From: a virus
Length of the DNA: 22,704 bases
Direction: 5' to 3' (one strand)
IMG/VR virus record: IMGVR_UViG_3300038825_000625
Coordinates: 1-22,704 of that record
The notes below the pieces were generated by a model. That model was not told where the DNA came from. It saw only the letters and a program-made list of their open reading frames with translations, and did not search any database. The stretch's first letter is position 1. Each line of letters begins with the position of its first letter. Below are positions 7,107 through 21,451 of the stretch, piece by piece. The position numbers and the translations under genes were made by a program.

Positions 7107-10037
7107 ATGGCTAATATCAATTTAGGTAACATTCGTAGATTAGGTTTTATAAAAGGTTTAGCCGACTCTGAACTTGCAAGACAAGCTGCACGAGCTAAGA
7201 TTGCTGAAGAAGATAGAGCGTATCAACGTTTGCTTAAAAGAGATGAAGAAAATCGTGCGTTTCAAGCTGCAGAGTCTGCAAAAGGCCGAGAGTTAACTAG
7301 AGAAAGAATGGGATACGAAGCAGAAGATAGAGCGGCTACAGCTGCTTTTCGCACAAAATCACTTGAGTATCAAGAAAAAGCAAGAATACGTGACGAAGAA
7401 AGACGAAAAGATACTGAAGCTTATAGAAGAGGACAAAAAGAAATAGTAAGACAATCTAATACACTTTCATCTATAGCAAATAATTACAAATCTGCTAACA
7501 CTGTAATATCGAAAGACCAAGAAAAAGAATTATCAGCTAGATTTTCTTTAGTTCCTGGTGCAACGCATATAATTGAAGGTATCAACATTCACGCGAACGC
7601 AGCAGAACGAGAAACAGTAAAAACAAACGCTGCAAGTATGGTTAAATTAATTCATAATAATAAAACAAGTATTCCTCCCGGCAGTGTAACATCAGAACAA
7701 CTTGTTCAGTATGCAGAACATAATGATTTCTTTAAAAAGTTTTTGACGACTAAAGGTAAAGCAAATCTTGTAGAATTTGATAAATATCTAAGACAAAAAC
7801 AGAAACATAAATCATTTGGAATGATAAATACAAAAGTTCGACCTAGAACTATAGGCACTGGGCCAGATGGTAGTGAAATACAGATTTCACAACCTACCGT
7901 TGATGAATACAAGAAAATGGTAGATAGTAAGCGTAGTAGAATAGATCAGATAAACGAAGCATTAGCTATCGCAACAGATCAAGATAGGCAAATAAAAGAA
8001 TATTACGATAAAGATACTACGTTATTTACTACAGAAAATAAACAAAGATTACAGGATGTGTATGGTAATATTGTGTCTAAATTTGCATCAGGTTTTCAAA
8101 AAATAGATGGAAGCGGTAAAGGCATAGGAACACGTTCAATATTTTCTGATGAGATTATTTTAAATAAAATGCCTTATCTAAAACAATTAATAAAAGCTGG
8201 AGTGTTAGATAAAAAACAAATAATGGATAGGGCTAATGTATTTGATCCGAAATCAGATCAAATGGCTAATGCAACTATTGGTAGGAAAACAGGTGAGATT
8301 ATAAGTCAACCTGTTCAGCCTGGAGAAACAATAACAGACTCTCCTTTTCAAATTTCTGTTCCTCTTCGTGCTTCTATAAAAGGAGTGCCTACAAATTCTG
8401 TAACTGCTACTTTTTTAACTGACGTAAATAAATTTAGAAGTTCAAAAGAATATGCGGATAATCCCGAAATAGGTAATAGAATTATTGCACGGTCTACTTT
8501 ATTTAGAGAATGGCATGATGCAGGTTATACTGGAACAAAAGATGGTGTTAATTACGAAGATTTATTATTAAAAACTTTAACAAATGGAGCAGGTGAGTTA
8601 AATCCTGATGCAAGCACTATTTTGAATAGAGCAGTTGTAATGGCTAATCCTGAAATGATTTACAAGATTAACACAGATTATAGAGGAGCAGGTGGAAAAC
8701 TATACGACGGTGTTAAAAATCCTAATATTCAAATGACTGACGAAGCAGATAAAATTGTATTAAATGCTGATGAAGCCATAGGTGAAACTGATGAAGTAAC
8801 CCGACTTGCCGAATCTATAAAGATAATGAGTAGACAGCTTCATATGCAAGGTATGTCTTCAGATGTTGCAGGATTTATAGATAAAACAGGCTTTCAATTT
8901 AAGACTGTTCCAGATGCTATAATTAATGGAGTTAAAGAAGTAGCGCGTTCTTTTGGTTTTAAACCCAAAAAAGGAGCAATACAAAATCTAGACGAAATGG
9001 AGTCTCAAGCTAAAGCGGTATACAGCAGTAGGGGTATAGGAAAAGCAGGTGAGGGAGGCACTGATGAAGAAAAAGTCAGAATTCGTAATGGAATTGTAAA
9101 AAGAGCGCAGGACGCAGCAGATAGAGATTTAAGAGTTTTAAATAATATGAGTAATGATGAGTTTTTATCAAAACATCCTCCTAAAAATTCTTCAGAGATG
9201 AATCAACAACAAATTAATGAATACGTTACACGAGCTAAAGTTGATAGGCAAAGAATAATCCTTAAAAAAATTGCTCTTACCTATAGAATGTCTGGATTGT
9301 TACAAGGAGACTCGTCAGGAAGAACTATCTCTAACGCTGACTTCGATGTGGCTTTGAGAGCATTGTGGGGTGAAGCATATGCTGTTGAAGCTAAGATGGA
9401 TGATATTATTCAATTTTTTAAGTATAGAAGAAACATAGCTGTAACAAACAGAGACTATGCAAGATCAGGTTTATTAACACCTATGTCTAAAATAAACGAA
9501 GCTTTAAATAGAAAGGTTAGTGATGATTTTGAAACCAAATTAAATGAAAGTGGAGAAAATAGACCTAGTTTTAGAGCAGGAGCGCAACAAGATGAAGCTG
9601 CTTTTAGAGCATTTTCTGGTTTAGGTAAACAAAAGTATCAAGAACTTTTCCAAGAGGTTACTAATAATACTGCAGAAATTATCAAAAGAGATTTTGGAGA
9701 TAGTATAAAAGTATTTGATAATATTAACCGACCTAGTGATTTTGTAGGAAAAAAAGTAAAAGTAAGAGGTAAAGAGATAGACTTACATACTACGATTAGT
9801 CGTATTACGTCACAAAAAGCAACTTATTTTTTATTGAATCTTTATAGAGATGACCCAGATAATTTTAAAAGATTTTTTAAAACTGGTAGAGATGGTAAAC
9901 CAGTTAGACCAAGAAAAATGAAAATGGAAATTATCAATATACCTCAACTGTTTACTACAGATGGAAAGAATTACATGAAAAATTTAATATATAGATTTGA
10001 ACAAGACTTAATTCAAAATATAAAAACAGGGAGATAG
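7107..10037 (+). CDS. Large putative internal virion / DNA-ejection protein (976 aa)
   Basis: The first 120 residues are extremely charged (Arg/Glu/Ala-rich, repeated RDEE and EEDRA-like pieces) and should form a long coiled coil. The rest is mixed, mostly helical and hydrophilic, with no transmembrane segment and no enzymatic signature that I recognise. Size and place just before a 1571-aa protein parallel T7 gp15 (747 aa) followed by gp16 (1318 aa), which form the trans-envelope ejection tube. That analogy rests on gene order and length only. The gene is distinctly AT-rich compared with the holin and the replication genes. It starts 1 nt after the previous stop with a weak ribosome site, suggesting coupling. 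Confidence 0.72.
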   Translation: MANINLGNIRRLGFIKGLADSELARQAARAKIAEEDRAYQRLLKRDEENRAFQAAESAKGRELTRERMGYEAEDRAATAAFRTKSLEYQEKARIRDEERRKDTEAYRRGQKEIVRQSNTLSSIANNYKSANTVISKDQEKELSARFSLVPGATHIIEGINIHANAAERETVKTNAASMVKLIHNNKTSIPPGSVTSEQLVQYAEHNDFFKKFLTTKGKANLVEFDKYLRQKQKHKSFGMINTKVRPRTIGTGPDGSEIQISQPTVDEYKKMVDSKRSRIDQINEALAIATDQDRQIKEYYDKDTTLFTTENKQRLQDVYGNIVSKFASGFQKIDGSGKGIGTRSIFSDEIILNKMPYLKQLIKAGVLDKKQIMDRANVFDPKSDQMANATIGRKTGEIISQPVQPGETITDSPFQISVPLRASIKGVPTNSVTATFLTDVNKFRSSKEYADNPEIGNRIIARSTLFREWHDAGYTGTKDGVNYEDLLLKTLTNGAGELNPDASTILNRAVVMANPEMIYKINTDYRGAGGKLYDGVKNPNIQMTDEADKIVLNADEAIGETDEVTRLAESIKIMSRQLHMQGMSSDVAGFIDKTGFQFKTVPDAIINGVKEVARSFGFKPKKGAIQNLDEMESQAKAVYSSRGIGKAGEGGTDEEKVRIRNGIVKRAQDAADRDLRVLNNMSNDEFLSKHPPKNSSEMNQQQINEYVTRAKVDRQRIILKKIALTYRMSGLLQGDSSGRTISNADFDVALRALWGEAYAVEAKMDDIIQFFKYRRNIAVTNRDYARSGLLTPMSKINEALNRKVSDDFETKLNESGENRPSFRAGAQQDEAAFRAFSGLGKQKYQELFQEVTNNTAEIIKRDFGDSIKVFDNINRPSDFVGKKVKVRGKEIDLHTTISRITSQKATYFLLNLYRDDPDNFKRFFKTGRDGKPVRPRKMKMEIINIPQLFTTDGKNYMKNLIYRFEQDLIQNIKTGR

Positions 10038-10042
10038 ATTTA

Positions 10043-13000
10043 ATGGTTGAAAATTTAAACTATCAAACATCTCTGTTAAAAGAAGACGACGAAGAATTAA
10101 GAAATCAAATGTTTTCTGTTTTTTCTGAACCAGAAGACCTTATTGATGAGTATGAAGGATTAGTTCAGTCTGATGAACAGGTTACTTCAAGTGTACCCCC
10201 ACAAGATATGGCAACTGCTGACATTGTTGGTGGCGAGGGAGATGATGTTCTTATTGGACAACAAGGACCAGATGTTTCGGATACTTTGTTTCAAACACAA
10301 GACAACATTGAAGATGACTTTGTAAACTCTGTTTTAGGAGGTTTTGTTACAAATTTAGAAAAGGACGAATCTTTTGGTTCTCCTATAGAATTTGCTGCGC
10401 CACAAACATTTCAAGAGTACGGTGAAGAAATAGTAGAAGACACTTCAAGTTATCTTGGAACTGCTGCTAGAATGGGTGCTTACGGATTTTTAAGACGAGG
10501 TATTGTAGGAACTGGAGAATTTTTGATTGAATCTCCAATATATGCTGCTCGTTTTCTTTCAGGCACACTTAGAGGCATAGAAGAAGCATCACGTTTTGCA
10601 GCAGCTGCTTTATTGCCTAAAGACTTAGAACTACTCATAAGCAGAAATATACTGGGAGAAGAACATAGAAACGTTTTTGATTATGTAGATATGTTTGATA
10701 CACAATCAGATATAGATCAGTTTGTTGATCAGTACATTGCAGGAGCTATTAACGCAGGTTACGATCTTATTACAGATGAAGATGGGGCTAAATTACTTAC
10801 TGTAAAAGATGAATTTGGTAACGTGCAAAAAGGAGATTACAATAAATTCGTAGACTATGTATTTAAAGGATTAGAAGTTCCTGTAGAAAAACAAAATGTT
10901 TTAGGTCGAGTATTGATGACTGCTGGAGAATTGATTGTACCTATGGGTGTGTTACGTACAGCTAGAGGAAAAATAGGTGAGACAATAGAAGATCAAATTA
11001 AAAAATTTACCAAAGAAAAAGATTTTATAAAACAAGAATTACGTACAAAAAACTTGCAAACGTATACTACAAAAGGCAGGGTTTACGATTCTAGTAAACT
11101 TAAAAGTCCTCGTGCTAAATCCTTAGAAAAAGGTTTAAACAGAGTAGAAAAAAAATTAGCTGATCTTAAATTTGAACAAAGACATTATTCTGCTGCAGAT
11201 ACTGCTGTTAAAGCAGGTAAAAATGTTAAAGATTCGGCAGTTGTAACATTTAAAGATGTTATGAAATCTGAAGCTAATATGGCAATCGCAGCTGCTACAG
11301 CGATGGTTTCTACTGAAGTAGCCTTAGAAGAGTTAGGTCTTGAAGAACTAAAACCTGCAGCTTTGCTTACAGGTATTGCAGGAGGCATGATAGGTGTAGG
11401 AGGTGTAGTTAGAGGATTATCATCTGCTAAATATTTAACACTATATGCTATTAAAGGTATAACTGAAGGTGGTCCTAGCGCACAGGGTGCTGAATATTAT
11501 TTGAGATATAAAGGATATGGTGAAGAATCTATTAGACAGATGACTGATGAAGAGAAAGTTCAAATAGCTGTAAGTAATCCTAAAGAGTTAAAAATAGCAA
11601 GAGATATTGGCAGAGCTATATCCGATTTAGAAAGGACTGATCCTAAAAAATTTAGAGAAATACAGTTTGCGGTTGAAGCTACTGAAAAATTAACCAGAAG
11701 GTTTAATAGAACTATTTTAGAAGATAAAGAACAAGGTTTTATAAAAGGTAAAGACTTTAATTACATATCTGAAACCATTCCTATTGTGTTAGATCAAGTA
11801 GTTCAAATAGCTGCTCTGTCTAAAGTAAGAGACACATTATTGAAGAATGTAACTACTGGTGGTTTTACTTTGAAAGCTAAAAAAGTAACAACTATAAATG
11901 AAATTGATAAAATGACTAAACTTCTTGAGACACAACAAAGACAAATTTTAGACTCTTTAGAAGCGTTAACAAAAAGAATTTATTCAGCTAAAGGTACAAC
12001 AGAAAGTAATGTTCAATCTTACGTGAGATATATGAATGAATTTGTCGAAGCATACAAAAAAGATGATTCTTTTCTAAATAGAGAAATAGATAGAATACGT
12101 AATTTGTCTGACGTAGATGTAGACCCTTTAAACACTCCTTTACTGACAGAAGATATCAATAAAATTTTTGGGCCAGATGATATGAATAGTGTTGCTATAA
12201 TGAATCGTCTACAGAAAGAAGGGTTTGATGAAAGAACTTTTACTGAAGAAGCTAGAAACTTATCTAAAATTAATAAAGAAGAGTTCGGTGAACAACAAAG
12301 CATACTGTTAGGAAACAGTTTTGAAAGTATAAAGAAACAATCTGATGCGAATTATGCAGAGGTTGAAGATTTTGACGTGGACGTAGACGATTTATTTCAT
12401 ATGAATGATTTTTCAGAAGAATTGATTAACGCTTCTGACTCATTAGAAAGATATGCAGCTGATTTAAAACGAGGAGGTAATAGACTAGAAGGTTTAGTAA
12501 GGGATGCTAGAAGAGTTGGATTACGTAGAGTGGCTATTAGATATTCAGATAAACCTAATAATCATATGGCAGCATTAATGGATATGTCTATTGAGCATAA
12601 TGAATTAATAGACCCTAATTACTTTAAAACTAGAAGGGATGAAAACGGAAGGTTACTTAGTAGAGAAGAAGCTATGCAGAAATTTAAAAATGAAAATTAC
12701 AAATTTGCTCAATCTCAAGGATCGTTCATGGCTATAAAAAGATTAGAAACAGAATTGATAAATTCAGATGTGTTTAAACAAACAACCGACAGCATGAATA
12801 GGGATGTTATAGAGTACATAGGAAGAGAGATTGTAGAAAACGATGTAACAAAAAGAGAATCAGTAATACCTGCATTTATGTCATTTAAAGATTTACTAGA
12901 TATACGTAGTAGAGCTATGTCTGATGCTTTTGCTAGAAACAAACAAACAGGAAATCTTAGTAAACAACATGACAAAAGAATCGAAGCAGGTGCATTTGTT

Positions 13001-14758
13001 TCAACACTAAATAATAAAGTAAGTAAATACATGAAAATGTACGGCGCAGAAGATTTAGGTATATCTAAAGACAGTTACGCTAAAGCCGTGCAAGCAGATA
13101 AATTTTATTCAAATGCAATTGGTAAAACTTTTAAACAGCGTTTAGGAGATTTTGTTAAAAGACAAGTTGATGACAGACCAACTGACACCGGGATTGACAG
13201 TATTCCTAGTGATCAACTTTTTGATTTATTTTTAGAACAACAAGATCATTTCAAATCAGCAGACATGTTTAGAAGAATGTTTACTGGTGATTTTGAAATA
13301 GATGAAAACGGTGTTAGAAAGTTTGTTGTAAGATTAGATGAAAATGGTAATCCTGTTGGTGAGATAAATGAAGAAGCTAAACAACTATTGCTAAAAGCAG
13401 TACGTAGACAATTTACAAATTCTTCTGGAAAAATAAATGGTCTTAAAGATTTAGACGATGATTTTTTAACGGCTTTCTTAGACGATGACTCAGGTGTTCA
13501 TCTTTTTAAAGGAATGGATGCAGAGGATGTGCGTAAATTTCAAGTTTGGAGACAACAAGAAACTAATTATATTGATAAACAATCTCAATTTTTTGTAGCT
13601 AACGAGAGAATGGAGTATAGGAAAACTCTTACAGAAGCTATGGAAGAATTATTTCAAGATAGAGAAACAGTTCTTGCTAAAAGTATCTTTGGAGAAAGAG
13701 TCACCGATAATTTTGATAGCGTAATAAAACAATTATTTGACCGTGAAGCTAGTTTTCATGCTGCAAGAGAACCTCTTGATTTTTTCAGAGCAAAAGCTTT
13801 TGACACATCTGATAACACTTTTTCTGTTGATAATTATGACAGGATGCGTAGAAATTATAATGTTATAGAAAATGCAGACAAAGATTTAGATGACAGAATA
13901 ACATTGGAAATGCTTGCACCTCCAGTTCGTAAAGGTGCCTCTGCTCCTAAAAGTCCTATTCAAATCCTTTTAGAAACAGTGGAAGATCAAGCTTCTCCAG
14001 CAAAACAACAAGAAATTAGAGAATCTTTGAAAGGATTATTTGTAGAGTATGTTACACGTAGAGCATATAACTTTAGAAATAAACAGAAGTGGGCAGCTAA
14101 CGAAGGAGAGTATGCTTTTGAACTTGCTAGAGATGTTGATCTAGGTGAGTTTACTCGTGTAATGAAGGAGAATGAAAAGACTTTAGAATTACTATTTGAA
14201 AATGATCCTGAACAACTAACAAGATTAAAAGACATACTTCAATTAGAAACTATGTTTCAAGGAAAAGGAATAGAAGGTTCTAAATTATTGGACATTGGAA
14301 TACAACTTAAACCTTCCTCTTTAATGTCAAGGGTGTACAGTATATCTAGAGGTGTAATCAGTCCTAAGTATGTTGCTACTGAGATAGCCATTGCTAAAGC
14401 TCAAGCAGAAAAAGGAAACTTTATGCTACAAGTTTTGATGAATCCTGCTGCAACTAAAACAGTAGCAGAGTCTATGGCTATTTCTGCAGGAATTAAACAA
14501 GCAGAACCAATTGCAGCAGAAAAATTAAGAAGGCTTGCAATAACTATTTTTTATACTCAAATGGGAGAAGATTATCCTGTAGAGATAAAAAGTGCTAGTT
14601 GGATTAAACAACAGTTAGAATTTGTTCCAAGAACTTTAAGTGAAATAAGGCAAGCTTCTAAGAGACAAGGAATGGGAATAACAAAAGAGCAGGATGCTCC
14701 ATATAGTATAAGGGAAGAAGTTGACGATCTTAGTAGATACGACAAGTTCTTGAATTAA
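10043..14758 (+). CDS. Very large putative internal virion / DNA-ejection protein (1571 aa) with RTX-like motif
   Basis: This is the largest gene in the window and is probably a virion protein that enters the cell with the DNA, by analogy with T7 gp16 (1318 aa). Visible features are: an acidic N-terminus; residues 63-80, which match two successive RTX-type calcium nonapeptides (GGEGDDVLI, GQQGPDVSD); a hydrophobic or amphipathic Ala/Gly/Phe-rich stretch at about 134-195; a second hydrophobic Ala/Gly stretch at about 411-475 that could insert in a membrane; long charged helical regions after that. I do not see the Glu-centred signature of an SLT lytic transglycosylase, which T7 gp16 carries at its N-terminus. 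GGGAGA precedes the ATG. Function is inferred from context and size. Confidence 0.72.
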   Translation: MVENLNYQTSLLKEDDEELRNQMFSVFSEPEDLIDEYEGLVQSDEQVTSSVPPQDMATADIVGGEGDDVLIGQQGPDVSDTLFQTQDNIEDDFVNSVLGGFVTNLEKDESFGSPIEFAAPQTFQEYGEEIVEDTSSYLGTAARMGAYGFLRRGIVGTGEFLIESPIYAARFLSGTLRGIEEASRFAAAALLPKDLELLISRNILGEEHRNVFDYVDMFDTQSDIDQFVDQYIAGAINAGYDLITDEDGAKLLTVKDEFGNVQKGDYNKFVDYVFKGLEVPVEKQNVLGRVLMTAGELIVPMGVLRTARGKIGETIEDQIKKFTKEKDFIKQELRTKNLQTYTTKGRVYDSSKLKSPRAKSLEKGLNRVEKKLADLKFEQRHYSAADTAVKAGKNVKDSAVVTFKDVMKSEANMAIAAATAMVSTEVALEELGLEELKPAALLTGIAGGMIGVGGVVRGLSSAKYLTLYAIKGITEGGPSAQGAEYYLRYKGYGEESIRQMTDEEKVQIAVSNPKELKIARDIGRAISDLERTDPKKFREIQFAVEATEKLTRRFNRTILEDKEQGFIKGKDFNYISETIPIVLDQVVQIAALSKVRDTLLKNVTTGGFTLKAKKVTTINEIDKMTKLLETQQRQILDSLEALTKRIYSAKGTTESNVQSYVRYMNEFVEAYKKDDSFLNREIDRIRNLSDVDVDPLNTPLLTEDINKIFGPDDMNSVAIMNRLQKEGFDERTFTEEARNLSKINKEEFGEQQSILLGNSFESIKKQSDANYAEVEDFDVDVDDLFHMNDFSEELINASDSLERYAADLKRGGNRLEGLVRDARRVGLRRVAIRYSDKPNNHMAALMDMSIEHNELIDPNYFKTRRDENGRLLSREEAMQKFKNENYKFAQSQGSFMAIKRLETELINSDVFKQTTDSMNRDVIEYIGREIVENDVTKRESVIPAFMSFKDLLDIRSRAMSDAFARNKQTGNLSKQHDKRIEAGAFVSTLNNKVSKYMKMYGAEDLGISKDSYAKAVQADKFYSNAIGKTFKQRLGDFVKRQVDDRPTDTGIDSIPSDQLFDLFLEQQDHFKSADMFRRMFTGDFEIDENGVRKFVVRLDENGNPVGEINEEAKQLLLKAVRRQFTNSSGKINGLKDLDDDFLTAFLDDDSGVHLFKGMDAEDVRKFQVWRQQETNYIDKQSQFFVANERMEYRKTLTEAMEELFQDRETVLAKSIFGERVTDNFDSVIKQLFDREASFHAAREPLDFFRAKAFDTSDNTFSVDNYDRMRRNYNVIENADKDLDDRITLEMLAPPVRKGASAPKSPIQILLETVEDQASPAKQQEIRESLKGLFVEYVTRRAYNFRNKQKWAANEGEYAFELARDVDLGEFTRVMKENEKTLELLFENDPEQLTRLKDILQLETMFQGKGIEGSKLLDIGIQLKPSSLMSRVYSISRGVISPKYVATEIAIAKAQAEKGNFMLQVLMNPAATKTVAESMAISAGIKQAEPIAAEKLRRLAITIFYTQMGEDYPVEIKSASWIKQQLEFVPRTLSEIRQASKRQGMGITKEQDAPYSIREEVDDLSRYDKFLN

Positions 14759-18277: not shown

Positions 18278-19860
18278 CACAACTCCTCTAGTTCAGTTAT
18301 ACGTCCTGTACCTAGATCATAATACAGTTTGGTAGCTTGGCCCGTAAGACCACTGAACCTGTTCTTTATTACTCTAGCGTATGTTGTGTGACGTTCTACA
18401 ACGCAATCAGCTTGTCCGTTACGTTCAAGACCTAGCACGATGTCACTAAGCTGACCTATACTGTGGCTACCTCTAAGATCACTCAAGCTAACATTTAGTG
18501 AGTTAGTTTCATGTGATCCACCATTGGACGGTCTACGTAGATGCGACACCATGAACAGACAGATATCTAGTTCCTGCACAAGAGTACGCAACTTAGTCAC
18601 GCAAGCGTCAATTGTCTTACGTTCGTCCATAGCGTTCTCTTGTGCGCTAACCAGTATACTGATATGATCTAATACGATGTACCTACAGTTCAAAGCGCGT
18701 ACAAGATAACGAATACGTGCTATGATGTTTTCTATTGTGTTAGACCCGAAGTGATCAAAGAAGTAGAAACGTTCTGAACCTAGAACTTCTTGAAATGCTT
18801 TCTCATACGCCTCATCCTCATAGACCACATCGGGAAGATGTAATGGCTTGTTCATGTGTAGGCTCATCAGACTTTCAGCTGTAGTGCGTACACTTTCTTC
18901 CATGAACATTAAGCCAATGTTTTCATCTGTCTTATTATAGATATGGTATATGATTTCTCGTAGAAAGCTACTCTTACCAATACCCGTGCCAGCGCAGATA
19001 GTTACTAACTCACCCTTACGTACTCCGTACGTCATACGGTTCAAACCTTCAAAGGGATAATCTACCACTGCTTCCTTTGGACCTTCTGACAGAACGTCCC
19101 ATAGTTGAGAACCAGCCACAATGCCATCAGGAGTGTGTGTATCTGCGTTCCACCAATCACTGACAAACTCAGTCGATTTATTCTCCATGAGATAAGCTGA
19201 AGCGTCCTTATAACGCATCTTCATAATCTTGGCTTTAGGTGACAGAACTTCTGCTATTGATTTAGCGTTCTCTAATCCCACTTTATCATTATCGAAACAA
19301 ATAACGATATTATCAAAGCTCATAAGATAGTCGTAATTGTCTACGATGTCTTTGTGTGCGCTAGCCGCACCTGTCTTTATGGATACACAAGGCCATTTAC
19401 TGTCGAACATCTGGTGTGCCGACATGGCATCTAGTTCACCTTCGCAGATGGTTATGTACTTACCACCCTTCTTAAATAACTGCTGACCAAATAACTTAGC
19501 GTCACTTATCTGACCTTCGACGGTGAAGACTTTGTTCTTGCCACGTATCTTGTTAGCGACATGCTGATTCCATTCATCGTAATATGGATACACATGTTTT
19601 GATGCGTCACTTACAGTTACACCGTACTTCAGACAAGTTTCAGAAGACAGTTTGCGCTTTGATAACTCCTTAGTCTTACCCGTGGTAAGATTAGAATTCA
19701 GTGCAGGATTCTTAACTTTATACTCGTTAATGTGCATCTCTATTCCGTTCTTAATAACAGTGTTACAAGAAAAACAATACGTACCATCTGCATAGATTGA
19801 TAGTGCGTCTGAACTACCACATGTAGGACAAGGCTGGTGTGTCTTCTTTGCCTTCGTCAT
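18277..19860 (-). CDS. T7 gp4-like primase-helicase
   Basis: Bifunctional replication enzyme that unwinds the fork 5'-3' as a hexamer and lays RNA primers. The 527-aa protein (T7 gp4 is 566 aa) contains, in order: a zinc ribbon with C11, C14, C29 and C32; a Toprim primase core with E140 and the GELDAMS motif at 141-147, plus D190 and D192 (CFDND); a linker around 245-285; a RecA-like helicase. The helicase has Walker A GTGIGKSS at 291-298, the catalytic EES at 321-323, Walker B YIVLDH at 394-399, the MVSHLRRP sensor at 437-444, DLRGS at 461-465 and the Arg-containing KNRFSG at 499-504. All expected catalytic positions seem intact. The ATG overlaps the exonuclease stop by 4 nt (ATGA), and its own stop shares one base with the endonuclease I start. 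Confidence 0.96.
   Translation of the reverse strand: MTKAKKTHQPCPTCGSSDALSIYADGTYCFSCNTVIKNGIEMHINEYKVKNPALNSNLTTGKTKELSKRKLSSETCLKYGVTVSDASKHVYPYYDEWNQHVANKIRGKNKVFTVEGQISDAKLFGQQLFKKGGKYITICEGELDAMSAHQMFDSKWPCVSIKTGAASAHKDIVDNYDYLMSFDNIVICFDNDKVGLENAKSIAEVLSPKAKIMKMRYKDASAYLMENKSTEFVSDWWNADTHTPDGIVAGSQLWDVLSEGPKEAVVDYPFEGLNRMTYGVRKGELVTICAGTGIGKSSFLREIIYHIYNKTDENIGLMFMEESVRTTAESLMSLHMNKPLHLPDVVYEDEAYEKAFQEVLGSERFYFFDHFGSNTIENIIARIRYLVRALNCRYIVLDHISILVSAQENAMDERKTIDACVTKLRTLVQELDICLFMVSHLRRPSNGGSHETNSLNVSLSDLRGSHSIGQLSDIVLGLERNGQADCVVERHTTYARVIKNRFSGLTGQATKLYYDLGTGRITELEEL
18283..18288 (-). promoter_or_regulatory. Ribosome binding site deciding the endonuclease I start
   Basis: GAGGAG on the - strand is 5 nt from the ATG at 18277 and 2 nt from the alternative GTG at 18280, which favours the ATG. 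It lies within the last codons of the primase-helicase gene. Confidence 0.6.
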
Positions 19861-20702
19861 AGTACCTCTTCTACGTTAGGTTCTTTTACAACTTTAGTGA
19901 AGTAACGATACCCATTGGCATATCTGAATACACGTAATCCTTCACCGTTATTTGTGTTCTGCCAGCACTTATTCTTGTAATCACAGAACACGCAATCTTT
20001 AACCAGAATCATGTTACCGCTGTTACCATCTGGTATTGGATCGAAGCAACGTTCAGGTATGTTCTTATTCTTTACCATCTTCTTCAGATGTTTCACTCTA
20101 TCAGAAGCGTTAATTAACATCAACTCATCTACCTGCATCATGCAGATTTCACCGCTGTTCTTGTTGATAGCGAGAAAACCACCTTCATCAAGGTCCAGGG
20201 CTTCCATGTACGCACTAATTTGAGAAATGTATCCAAACGGATCGTTGTTCTCAAGCGTATTTTGTTTAAATTTTTTGAAACCATAGTCCGAAGCTGATTT
20301 AACGTCTACCAACGCACCGTCAATAACAGCGTCGATATGACCTTTTACGCCTTCTAGTTCTACTTCTCTCTGCCGGTCTTCAACTTTGTGTCCAGACTCT
20401 GTTACTAAATATAACAGTAGCGCCTCTAACAGATGACCGTAAAAGAAACGCATACGCAATGCCGGTGATTCTTTACGAGGCACCGGATCATTTATCTCAT
20501 ACCACAGTTTGCGATCAGTACGACCAATAGCAGACAAGCGTAATCGTTTTCGTTCACCTTCGTATGGCGAAAGAAACCGTTCTATCTCTTCACGTACTAC
20601 AGACAGAAAATCTTCTAAATTATTCTGATCTAATTCTTCTTTACCATTAAGTATTAATTCTTCTATGTCTGTAGTTAAAGTCTTCACTGATTTCTTCGCC
20701 AT
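19857..20702 (-). CDS. PD-(D/E)XK (RecB/Cas4-like) exonuclease with C-terminal Cys cluster
   Basis: Predicted phage DNA exonuclease that may act like T7 gp6 in host-DNA breakdown and primer removal or recombination. Visible nuclease residues in the 281-aa protein are GHLLE at 89-93, GHIDAV at 121-126 with D124, the core LVDVKSAS with D133 and K135, and QISAYMEAL from Q161. Cysteines C219, C237, C240 and C246 (C-x17-C-x2-C-x5-C) at the C-terminal end are placed like an iron-sulphur cluster or zinc site. The N-terminal Cys of classical Cas4 is replaced: the equivalent region reads GRTDRKLWYE at 60-69. Proteins of this type occur in T7-like marine phages at the same place beside primase-helicase. 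AGGAG lies 5 nt before the ATG. It is the first gene after the non-coding block. Confidence 0.85.
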   Translation of the reverse strand: MAKKSVKTLTTDIEELILNGKEELDQNNLEDFLSVVREEIERFLSPYEGERKRLRLSAIGRTDRKLWYEINDPVPRKESPALRMRFFYGHLLEALLLYLVTESGHKVEDRQREVELEGVKGHIDAVIDGALVDVKSASDYGFKKFKQNTLENNDPFGYISQISAYMEALDLDEGGFLAINKNSGEICMMQVDELMLINASDRVKHLKKMVKNKNIPERCFDPIPDGNSGNMILVKDCVFCDYKNKCWQNTNNGEGLRVFRYANGYRYFTKVVKEPNVEEVL

Positions 20703-20725
20703 TGTGTCTCCTACTGTTAAAGAAT

Positions 20726-20753
20726 GTGATAGCTACCGTCCCTCTACTATCAC
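20726..20753. repeat. Inverted repeat (7-bp stem)
   Basis: GTGATAG at 20726-20732 and CTATCAC at 20747-20753 are exact complements separated by 14 nt. On the - strand the hairpin would lie 24 nt upstream of the exonuclease ATG, close to its ribosome site. No U-run follows, so it does not look like a terminator. Confidence 0.4.
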
Positions 20754-20774
20754 TGAACTACCCTATCTGTAGTT

Positions 20775-20790
20775 CTCCCTACTATTAAGG
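20775..20790 (-). promoter_or_regulatory. Possible phage-type promoter or duplicated leader motif
   Basis: On the - strand the segment reads CCTTAATAGTAGGGAG followed by AAC. It is a near copy of CTTTAACAGTAGGAG at 20722-20708, which forms the exonuclease ribosome site. The TAATA...TAGGGAGA look also recalls T7-class promoters, but no phage RNA polymerase gene is in the window, so this stays a weak suggestion. Confidence 0.2.
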
Positions 20791-20879
20791 TGGAAAGGTA
20801 AGGAATCGAACCTTACGCTAGGTTGCTCGACCAACCCTGTAACGTTGTCGAAAACGGTACATTAGCCGCCTTGCTTTCC
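20791..20879 (-). tRNA. Degenerate class II tRNA, tRNA-Ser(CGA)-like
   Basis: On the - strand this 89-nt stretch has a class II tRNA layout. The acceptor is GGAAAGC paired with CCTTTCC (6 of 7 pairs, last pair C-C). A perfect T arm TAAGG-TTCGATT-CCTTA lies at 20815-20799. A long variable arm GGTTG/CAACC lies at 20836-20821. An anticodon hairpin CGTT-TTCGAC-AACG lies at 20856-20843, presenting CGA (Ser). Faults are plain: the anticodon loop has 6 nt rather than 7, the D arm is about 5 nt short with no good stem, and the bases after the discriminator are CCT rather than CCA. It may be a decayed tRNA, an atypical functional one, or a tRNA-derived attachment site; no integrase gene is seen in the window. 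Confidence 0.45.
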
Positions 20880-20884
20880 ATAGT

Positions 20885-20933
20885 GAAGATACAGTGTTTC
20901 TCCTTGTGGCGAGGGTTTGCCCACTGTATCTTC
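20885..20933. repeat. Perfect 12-bp inverted repeat, possible pseudoknot-forming RNA
   Basis: GAAGATACAGTG at 20885-20896 is the exact reverse complement of CACTGTATCTTC at 20922-20933, with a 25-nt loop. Loop bases GAGGGT at 20911-20916 are complementary to ACCCTC at 20938-20943 outside the stem, so a pseudoknot is possible in the transcript. No T-run follows on either side, which argues against a simple intrinsic terminator. It sits between the SSB stop and the tRNA-like element and could be a processing, stability or replication signal. Confidence 0.55.
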
Positions 20934-20950
20934 CTTCACCCTCTAGCTAC

Positions 20951-20964
20951 CGACCTTATGGTCG
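20951..20964. repeat. Short hairpin right after the SSB stop codon
   Basis: CGACC at 20951-20955 and GGTCG at 20960-20964 form a perfect 5-bp stem with a TTAT loop, 1 nt beyond the SSB stop. No U-run follows on the - strand. It may protect the SSB mRNA 3' end; this is inference. Confidence 0.35.
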
Positions 20965-20965
20965 A

Positions 20966-21436
20966 TTACAGTTCGTCACCATCCAACTCGTCAATGACGT
21001 CATTTTCAACTGTATTGTCTTCTAGCACAAAACCCTCTTCCTGATCAAGATCATCCGCACCTTCATAGGGCTTATAATCAATGACCATAACTGAATTAAG
21101 AGAGCAACCAACACCAGATTTCTTCTGGTAACGCCAATCATATGCACTGATAGAACATTTTACAGTACTGCCGTTTCCGACCACCATCTTATGCGGCCAA
21201 GGATTCCTAGCTGAATCTGTAACTTTGGGAAGCCTTTTGGTCTTGGCTGTAACGAAATGACCTTTATCTGCCTTTTCGCCTTCACCCTTTTTGACTTCGA
21301 TGCCAATGCTCTCAACAGCTTTGATGGCATCTTTGTCGAGGTTACAAATGTCGATTTGATATCTGTCCGACATTTCATTACGCTCAAACAGGCTAGCCCA
21401 CATGGCTTCGCCTTTAACTACTACACGTTCCTGCAT
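20966..21436 (-). CDS. T7 gp2.5-like single-stranded DNA-binding protein
   Basis: Coats single-stranded DNA at the fork and contacts the polymerase and primase-helicase. The protein (156 aa from the ATG at 21436) begins with ERVVVKGEAMWASLFE and has an OB-fold-like strand pattern through about 115, with aromatic residues such as the AYDWRYQK stretch. It ends in a long acidic tail (DELDGDEL) of the kind used by gp2.5 for partner binding. It is shorter than T7 gp2.5 (232 aa) and lacks the terminal Phe that T7 gp2.5 uses. The frame could open at a TTG at 21451, but AAGGAG is 6 nt from the ATG at 21436 and overlaps the TTG region, so the ATG is preferred. Position directly behind the polymerase gene supports the call. 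Confidence 0.85.
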   Translation of the reverse strand: MQERVVVKGEAMWASLFERNEMSDRYQIDICNLDKDAIKAVESIGIEVKKGEGEKADKGHFVTAKTKRLPKVTDSARNPWPHKMVVGNGSTVKCSISAYDWRYQKKSGVGCSLNSVMVIDYKPYEGADDLDQEEGFVLEDNTVENDVIDELDGDEL

Positions 21437-21442
21437 ATTTTT

Positions 21443-21448
21443 CTCCTT
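21443..21448 (-). promoter_or_regulatory. Ribosome binding site deciding the SSB start
   Basis: AAGGAG on the - strand, 6 nt before the ATG at 21436. It overlaps the region that a TTG start at 21451 would translate, which argues against that alternative. Confidence 0.65.
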
Positions 21449-21451
21449 CAA

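Follow-up and report, generated by a model that had tools for sequence, protein, structure and literature searches.

The locus and its tRNA-like element

We analysed a stretch of viral DNA, positions 1 to 22,704 of IMG/VR record IMGVR_UViG_3300038825_000625 (the window), a 22.7-kb virus record that is possibly a fragment and is distant kin of Pelagibacter phage HTVC103P and roseobacter Zobellviridae. A previous sequence-only reading had described a degenerate, serine transfer RNA (tRNA)-like element with anticodon CGA at 20791–20879, within the replication operon. An element is found there on the minus strand (20880–20791), in a 263-nucleotide (nt) gap between the genes for a gp2.5-like SSB (20966–21451, minus strand) and a Cas4-domain exonuclease (19857–20702, minus strand), a position borne out by the gene calls; a DNA polymerase gene stands before and a primase-helicase gene after. 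The main feature had been overlooked: the loops of its two hairpins are complementary to each other. We therefore call it the tRNA-like kissing-loop RNA. Its parts are as follows.

20791..20880, minus strand: whole kissing-loop RNA, 90 nt counting U-1; 96.6 bits with covariance model R1, a score to which the window itself contributed as 1 of 15 model-building sequences, so that the weight rests on covariation instead
20874..20880, minus strand: acceptor-like 5′ strand U-GGAAAG (G1 at 20879, U-1 at 20880); partner 20791–20797; double changes at several pairs
20861..20873, minus strand: 13-nt linker CAAGGCGGCTAAT where a D arm would be, from the alignments
20853..20860, minus strand: hairpin 1 ("anticodon" arm), 5′ strand GTACCGTT; partner 20839–20846
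20847..20852, minus strand: kissing strand 1, loop TTCGAC, holding the CGA that was read as anticodon; complement of 20826–20831
20839..20846, minus strand: hairpin 1, 3′ strand AACGTTAC, from the covariation alignment
20832..20837, minus strand: hairpin 2 ("variable" arm), 5′ strand GGGTTG, from covariation
20826..20831, minus strand: kissing strand 2, loop GTCGAG, paired with strand 1 in 138/138 cells (23 members)
20820..20825, minus strand: hairpin 2, 3′ strand CAACCT, from covariation
20817..20820, minus strand: conserved TARC segment (TAGC in the window) from hairpin 2 to the T arm, from the alignments
20798..20816, minus strand: T arm with 6-base-pair (bp) stem GTAAGG/CCTTAC; 100% of cells paired, with double changes
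20804–20810, minus strand: canonical 7-nt T loop TTCGATT, part of the T arm
20791..20797, minus strand: acceptor-like 3′ strand CTTTCC and discriminator-like A73 (at 20791), invariant in the alignments
20885..20933, minus strand: hairpin immediately upstream of the element, stem GAAGATACAGTG/CACTGTATCTTC, from folding of the flank

The 6-bp acceptor helix, the T arm with its TTCGATT loop, the CGA-bearing hairpin and the second hairpin described previously are thus all present, and the "anticodon" loop, at 6 nt, is indeed one base short. The span was placed correctly, except that U-1 (20880) had been left out. There is no D arm; where one short by about 5 nt had been described stands the linker, which appears to resemble the D-loop half of class II tRNAs. 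The acceptor-like helix GGAAAG/CTTTCC may be extended by a U-A pair, and the acceptor/T stack of the window RNA and its relatives comprises 12 bp arranged as 6+6, not 7+5. Hairpin 1 contains one C-U mismatch in the window copy. Folding energy of the window element alone was modestly unusual (z = -2.0); a single sequence with such a value proves little, and it is the relatives that settle whether the fold arose by chance. No promoters or terminators were detected in a scan of 20600–21100. The hairpin immediately upstream might be an RNase III site; strong, sequence-variable hairpins also lie directly upstream of the element in contigs L044, L043, and L052.

Relatives and covariation

Approximately 30–40 distinct relatives of the element were found in viral contigs. 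At loci with a related exonuclease or SSB, the element occupies the same ssb/exonuclease position in groups A (the window and L002–L007), B (L010, L011, L012, L014, and L018), C (L044), and D (L042 and L043). Further groups, in unrelated-looking phages, were recovered using IUPAC patterns that omitted the loops and model R1, built without the kissing helix. R1 brought in more members, and every examined match above 40 bits has complementary loops; loop sequences played no part in finding groups B, D, E, F, and G. Weak matches (about 20–32 bits) in L069, L084, L074, L191, L198, L381, and others were left out of the member count. Common to the members are the invariant G1 and A73, the 6-bp acceptor-like helix, the linker in place of the D arm, hairpins 1 and 2, the TARC segment, and a T arm whose 6-bp stem carries a TTCRA loop. 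Many carry an extra U-A pair outside the acceptor-like helix. The alignments revealed no conserved stem at the D-arm position. No CCA is encoded, as already reported for the window copy.

The comparison of related phages for compensatory changes, set beforehand as the test that could refute the element, revealed such changes throughout. In an alignment of 15 sequences with 33 pairs, 92.9% of cells were paired, compared with 69.0% after shuffling (0/500 shuffles equalled it) and 36–50% in slid controls. Double-changed cells numbered 139, compared with 48 in shuffles, and 24 of the 33 pairs were changed on both sides. In a gap-free core of 23 members, restricted to those with 15-nt spacing between the kissing strands, 97.4% of cells were paired (72% shuffled). 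Within this core the kissing helix was paired in 138/138 cells, compared with 66% in shuffles, with a covariation score of 0.863 versus 0.197, 40 double-changed cells versus 10, and double changes at 5 of its 6 pairs. Hairpin 1 showed double changes at 8/8 pairs among the relatives. Both alignments rule out a chance fold. In many phages compensatory changes preserve every helix, the loop-loop helix among them, which refutes the idea of a decaying tRNA. Mismatched cells were of the G-U type in 53 cases and of the A-C type in 6, which disfavours an element acting at the DNA level; judged from these alignments, a functional RNA read from the minus strand is favoured.

The hairpin 1 and hairpin 2 loops were complementary over 5–7 bp in every strong match, despite complete change of sequence, and members with 16–22 nt spacing also carry complementary loops. 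The pairs are listed below.

TTCGAC:GTCGAG, window
TGTGAC:GTCACA, group B and L052
GTGTAT:ATACAC, group C
CCAAA:TTTGG, group D; AGCCAAA:TTTGGCT, L187/L189
CCCTAA:TTAGGG, L071, L072, L188, and L178; CCCTAG:CTAGGG, L168
CTCTGAC:GTCAGAG, L190/L164
CTAGAC:GTCTAG, L176 and L202
TTCAGA:TCTGAA, L183
TTACAC:GTGTAG, L170, L173, and L174
CTGTAC:GTACAG, most long-form entries; CTATAC:GTATAG, L167

One-pair compensatory changes distinguish otherwise similar copies (L168 and L072; L167 and L172). Swapping loop partners between families abolished pairing, with 0/20000 permutations reaching the observed sum, where loop limits had been set by hand. Among 54 genuine class II tRNAs taken from genome loci, the anticodon loop and variable arm could form at most 4 pairs and never 5.

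Length rule and long form

Kissing strand 1 lies exactly 62 nt from A73 in 24/24 members with canonical spacing, where length changes occur only upstream of kissing strand 1, in the linker and hairpin 1; the kissing strands are 15 nt apart in most members. A long form of about 120–137 nt contains an inserted hairpin with a kink-turn signature, CCNNNGA ... GGAGG. The signature (C stem, 3-nt bulge, and tandem G-A) is present on both strands in 17 of 18 long entries with the insert, the exception being L172:1251, which has AGAGG; L178 and L183 carry other inserts without it.

When the loops are fully paired, kissing complexes usually stack coaxially. By simple A-form arithmetic, hairpin 1 (8 bp), the kiss (6 bp), and hairpin 2 (6 bp) placed end to end would hold the hairpin bases 50–55 Å apart, and the two hairpins are joined by only 0–1 nt. 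A coaxial 6-bp kiss would therefore be hard to form within one molecule, which favours pairing between two copies.

Recognition by tRNA and RNA-family tools

ARAGORN called no tRNA in the window, and Rfam 15 gave no match there at the gathering threshold, including its GOLLD, ROOL, and bacterial Y RNA (YrlA) models. Under permissive settings the window element matched the tRNA-Sec model best, scoring 14 bits (E = 4) where the cut-off is 47. Relatives' loci L172, L188, L202, and L189 were without an Rfam 15 match at E up to 0.5, GOLLD/ROOL models included. ARAGORN labels some other family members tRNA-Pyl(cta) or tRNA-???(gtga), namely L188:1707–1797 (minus strand), L160:1502–1593 (plus strand), L161:1502–1598 (minus strand), L011:827–917, L014:1593–1683, and L018:2089–2179. 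Lists of viral tRNAs thus probably hold mislabelled copies of the kissing-loop RNA, since tRNA finders either overlook it or name it tRNA-Pyl or tRNA-???, leaving it hidden or mislabelled in viral genomes. Because both a D arm and a free anticodon were looked for and neither was found, we file it as a tRNA-like RNA and not a tRNA. A tRNA-like body closed off on its anticodon side by a covarying loop-loop helix is described in none of the open-access papers searched. As judged from sequence comparison, the kissing-loop RNA represents a genuine RNA family, so far undescribed and present in many marine phages, rather than a serine tRNA in decay.

Distribution and genomic context

Whole-record searches of L041, L008, and L022 revealed no element elsewhere in those records. 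A whole-record model search of 13 named phages (HTVC103P, CRP-5, Greip, HTVC115P, HTVC104P, P12053L, SIO1, ICBM1, CRP-13, CRP-9, CRP-4, T5S1-k141_653015, and phiM6) gave no match, and a BLASTN search with the element by itself yielded, among named phages, T-arm matches only, to ordinary tRNA-like stretches. In a pattern scan of bacterial genomes, which was not exhaustive, 71 loci among the matches listed were searched with the model and none exceeded 23 bits.

The examined copies are intergenic, nearly always with co-directional genes next. Neighbours of the relatives vary, and include SSB/exonuclease, endolysin followed by primase, a UvsX-like recombinase, a 2OG-Fe(II) oxygenase, and a phrog_1392 protein. 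Several copies sit in long non-coding stretches; two copies, or a second tRNA-like element, occur in tandem in L052, L172, L180, L195, L181, and L184, and in L170 a genuine tRNA-Trp starts 14 nt after the element. The second tRNA-like element of L181 (about 498–666) lies just upstream of the member and has an acceptor and T arm with a long insert in hairpin 2, while that of L052 (7309–7402, minus strand), likewise just upstream, has an acceptor and T arm with an unclear middle. In L164 (~1480–1620) the element stands atop a long inverted repeat of about 20 bp, GCTCTC..TTTTATGGAAGG / CCTTCCATAAAAGAG..GAGC, which looks like an extended acceptor helix. The contig carrying the L183 member also encodes a transfer-messenger RNA (tmRNA) called by ARAGORN (L183:2095–2561, minus strand; tag ANDNFAYEDYALAA). 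A few small opposite-strand open reading frames near L178, L187, and L189 may be spurious. In the window itself, the open reading frames at 7107–10037 (976 amino acids) and 10043–14758 (1571 amino acids) have no PHROG match, and the first is also without a Pfam match.

Proposed role and alternatives

The best explanation of these observations, to which we give a probability of about 0.6 from the sequence comparisons, is a phage RNA family that copies the acceptor/T half of a tRNA and does not decode, in keeping with the suggestion in the sequence-only reading of a tRNA-like RNA recruited for another use. The element would be transcribed with the phage operon and excised by host RNase P at its 5′ end and by a 3′ tRNA nuclease. 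We infer excision by RNase P because the element presents a T-loop elbow, a 12-bp stack, G1, often U-1, and A73. RNase P gauges its substrates by the T-loop/acceptor stack and cuts RNAs that offer one, with no need of the D-loop (PMC4919913), and pseudoknotted tRNA mimics are known substrates (PMC12710915). The features of such a substrate (T loop with a 12-bp stack, G1, and a 3′ discriminator) are all found in the sequence. Once released, the RNA would form a stable tRNA mimic with its "anticodon" and "variable" loops hidden in the loop-loop helix. We tentatively propose, as the likeliest role, that it acts in trans, occupying tRNA-handling or tRNA-attacking machinery during infection, although the odds of this role are somewhat below even.

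Several observations weigh against this explanation. For the window copy taken singly, the lowest-energy predicted structure (-27.8 kcal/mol) pairs the middle of the element otherwise than the tRNA-like fold does, which reaches -24.5 kcal/mol with the kiss left out. The element also encodes no CCA. The count of 138/138 paired kissing cells is biased by the long forms, in which kissing strand 1 was located by its complement, and sequence cannot tell kissing within a molecule from kissing between molecules. The element is also absent at the locus in the close relatives L041, L013, L016, L017, and L019, and is therefore not essential.

As to the partners in the kiss, analogy with known systems and the geometry given above lead us to lean slightly toward reciprocal kissing between two copies, that is, a homodimer. 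The competing arrangement, in which the loops kiss within one molecule to lock it into a compact monomeric tRNA mimic, has a substantial but lesser chance of being correct. The strict 15-nt spacing of the kissing strands in most members fits such a lock, and in the long form the kink turn could allow the arm to bend; however, stacked 6-nt loops would put the hairpin bases about 50–55 Å apart, across a joint of 0–1 nt.

The RNA might instead work in cis, as processing punctuation: RNase P and the 3′ tRNA nuclease would cut the phage mRNA, parting ssb from exonuclease expression and leaving mRNA with defined ends, and the excised piece would have no job of its own. Intergenic copies followed by co-directional genes, tRNA-like ends, and the strong hairpins adjoining the element are consistent with this, and presence or absence among relatives would fit fine-tuning. 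However, a T arm and acceptor would suffice for such cutting, which leaves the conserved kissing helix and the 62-nt rule unexplained, and several copies, some in tandem, lie in long non-coding stretches. We consider punctuation unlikely as the whole function.

Still less probable, and speculative, is a version of the trans role in which the RNA is a nuclease-proof decoy that titrates tRNA-attacking defence nucleases, its own loops being shielded by pairing. Defences that cut the variable or anticodon loops of tRNAs (PMC13096335) form the basis of this reading; the two shielded loops stand where such nucleases cut, and the sporadic presence of the element fits an anti-defence gene, but a nuclease that reads the anticodon would not bind a hidden one.

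Two of the readings offered originally have almost no probability left. A decaying or unusual tRNA-Ser(CGA) would account for the class II-like layout, the T arm, and the CGA in a loop, and its D-loop-like linker hints at a class II tRNA ancestor; however, that CGA lies within the conserved loop-loop helix, the same positions read UGA, GUA, CUA, or AGA in relatives, the loop has 6 nt, there is no D arm, and tRNA models fail. A phage attachment site (attP) core derived from a host tRNA gene would explain the resemblance to a tRNA 3′ end, and some marine phages were said in that reading to use such sites, but no integrase was found among 17 proteins scanned in the window (itself possibly a fragment), covariation keeps the whole structure and not merely the 3′ end, and some contigs carry two copies.

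Taken in its broadest form, the proposal would be of widespread phage non-decoding tRNA mimics that dimerise by reciprocal kissing, are matured by the host, and block or evade tRNA-directed host functions. We think this rather doubtful as a whole, at odds a little below those of punctuation. The family offers a direct test of how far a mimic can engage tRNA-processing enzymes, of whether small phage RNAs multimerise like GOLLD and ROOL, and of whether phages counter tRNA-cleaving defences with tRNA mimics that resist nucleases.

Comparison with known systems

With class II tRNAs (tRNA-Ser/Leu/Tyr), the kissing-loop RNA has in common a 12-bp acceptor/T stack, a canonical T loop, A73 (as in Leu/Tyr), hairpins at the positions of the anticodon and long variable arms, and a D-loop-like linker. 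It differs in its 6+6 rather than 7+5 bp, in lacking a D arm and an encoded CCA, and in its 6-nt "anticodon" loop, which pairs with the variable-arm loop, holds no conserved triplet, and leaves no free 7-nt loop.

We know of no anticodon-arm/variable-arm loop kiss in the tRNA mimics cut by RNase P, namely tmRNA, plant-virus tRNA-like structures, and MALAT1. The turnip yellow mosaic virus (TYMV) structure contains an H-type pseudoknot, and the TYMV viral 3′ end carries CCA, unlike the element. What these mimics and the element share is an acceptor/T half shown to tRNA enzymes (PMC4919913, PMC12710915).

GOLLD and ROOL are phage-encoded, often lie near tRNAs, and have covarying kissing loops that act between molecules (PMC12286853). 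They are hundreds of nt in length and without a tRNA-like acceptor/T body, whereas the kissing-loop RNA measures about 90–140 nt. The packaging RNA (pRNA) of phi29 is a small phage RNA in which two complementary loops join molecules head to tail (PMC7357161), and two complementary loops are likewise seen, by sequence alone, in the element. In contrast to the element, which is not kept in all close relatives, pRNA has a 4-bp kiss, is needed for packaging, and has neither a T loop nor an acceptor-like end.
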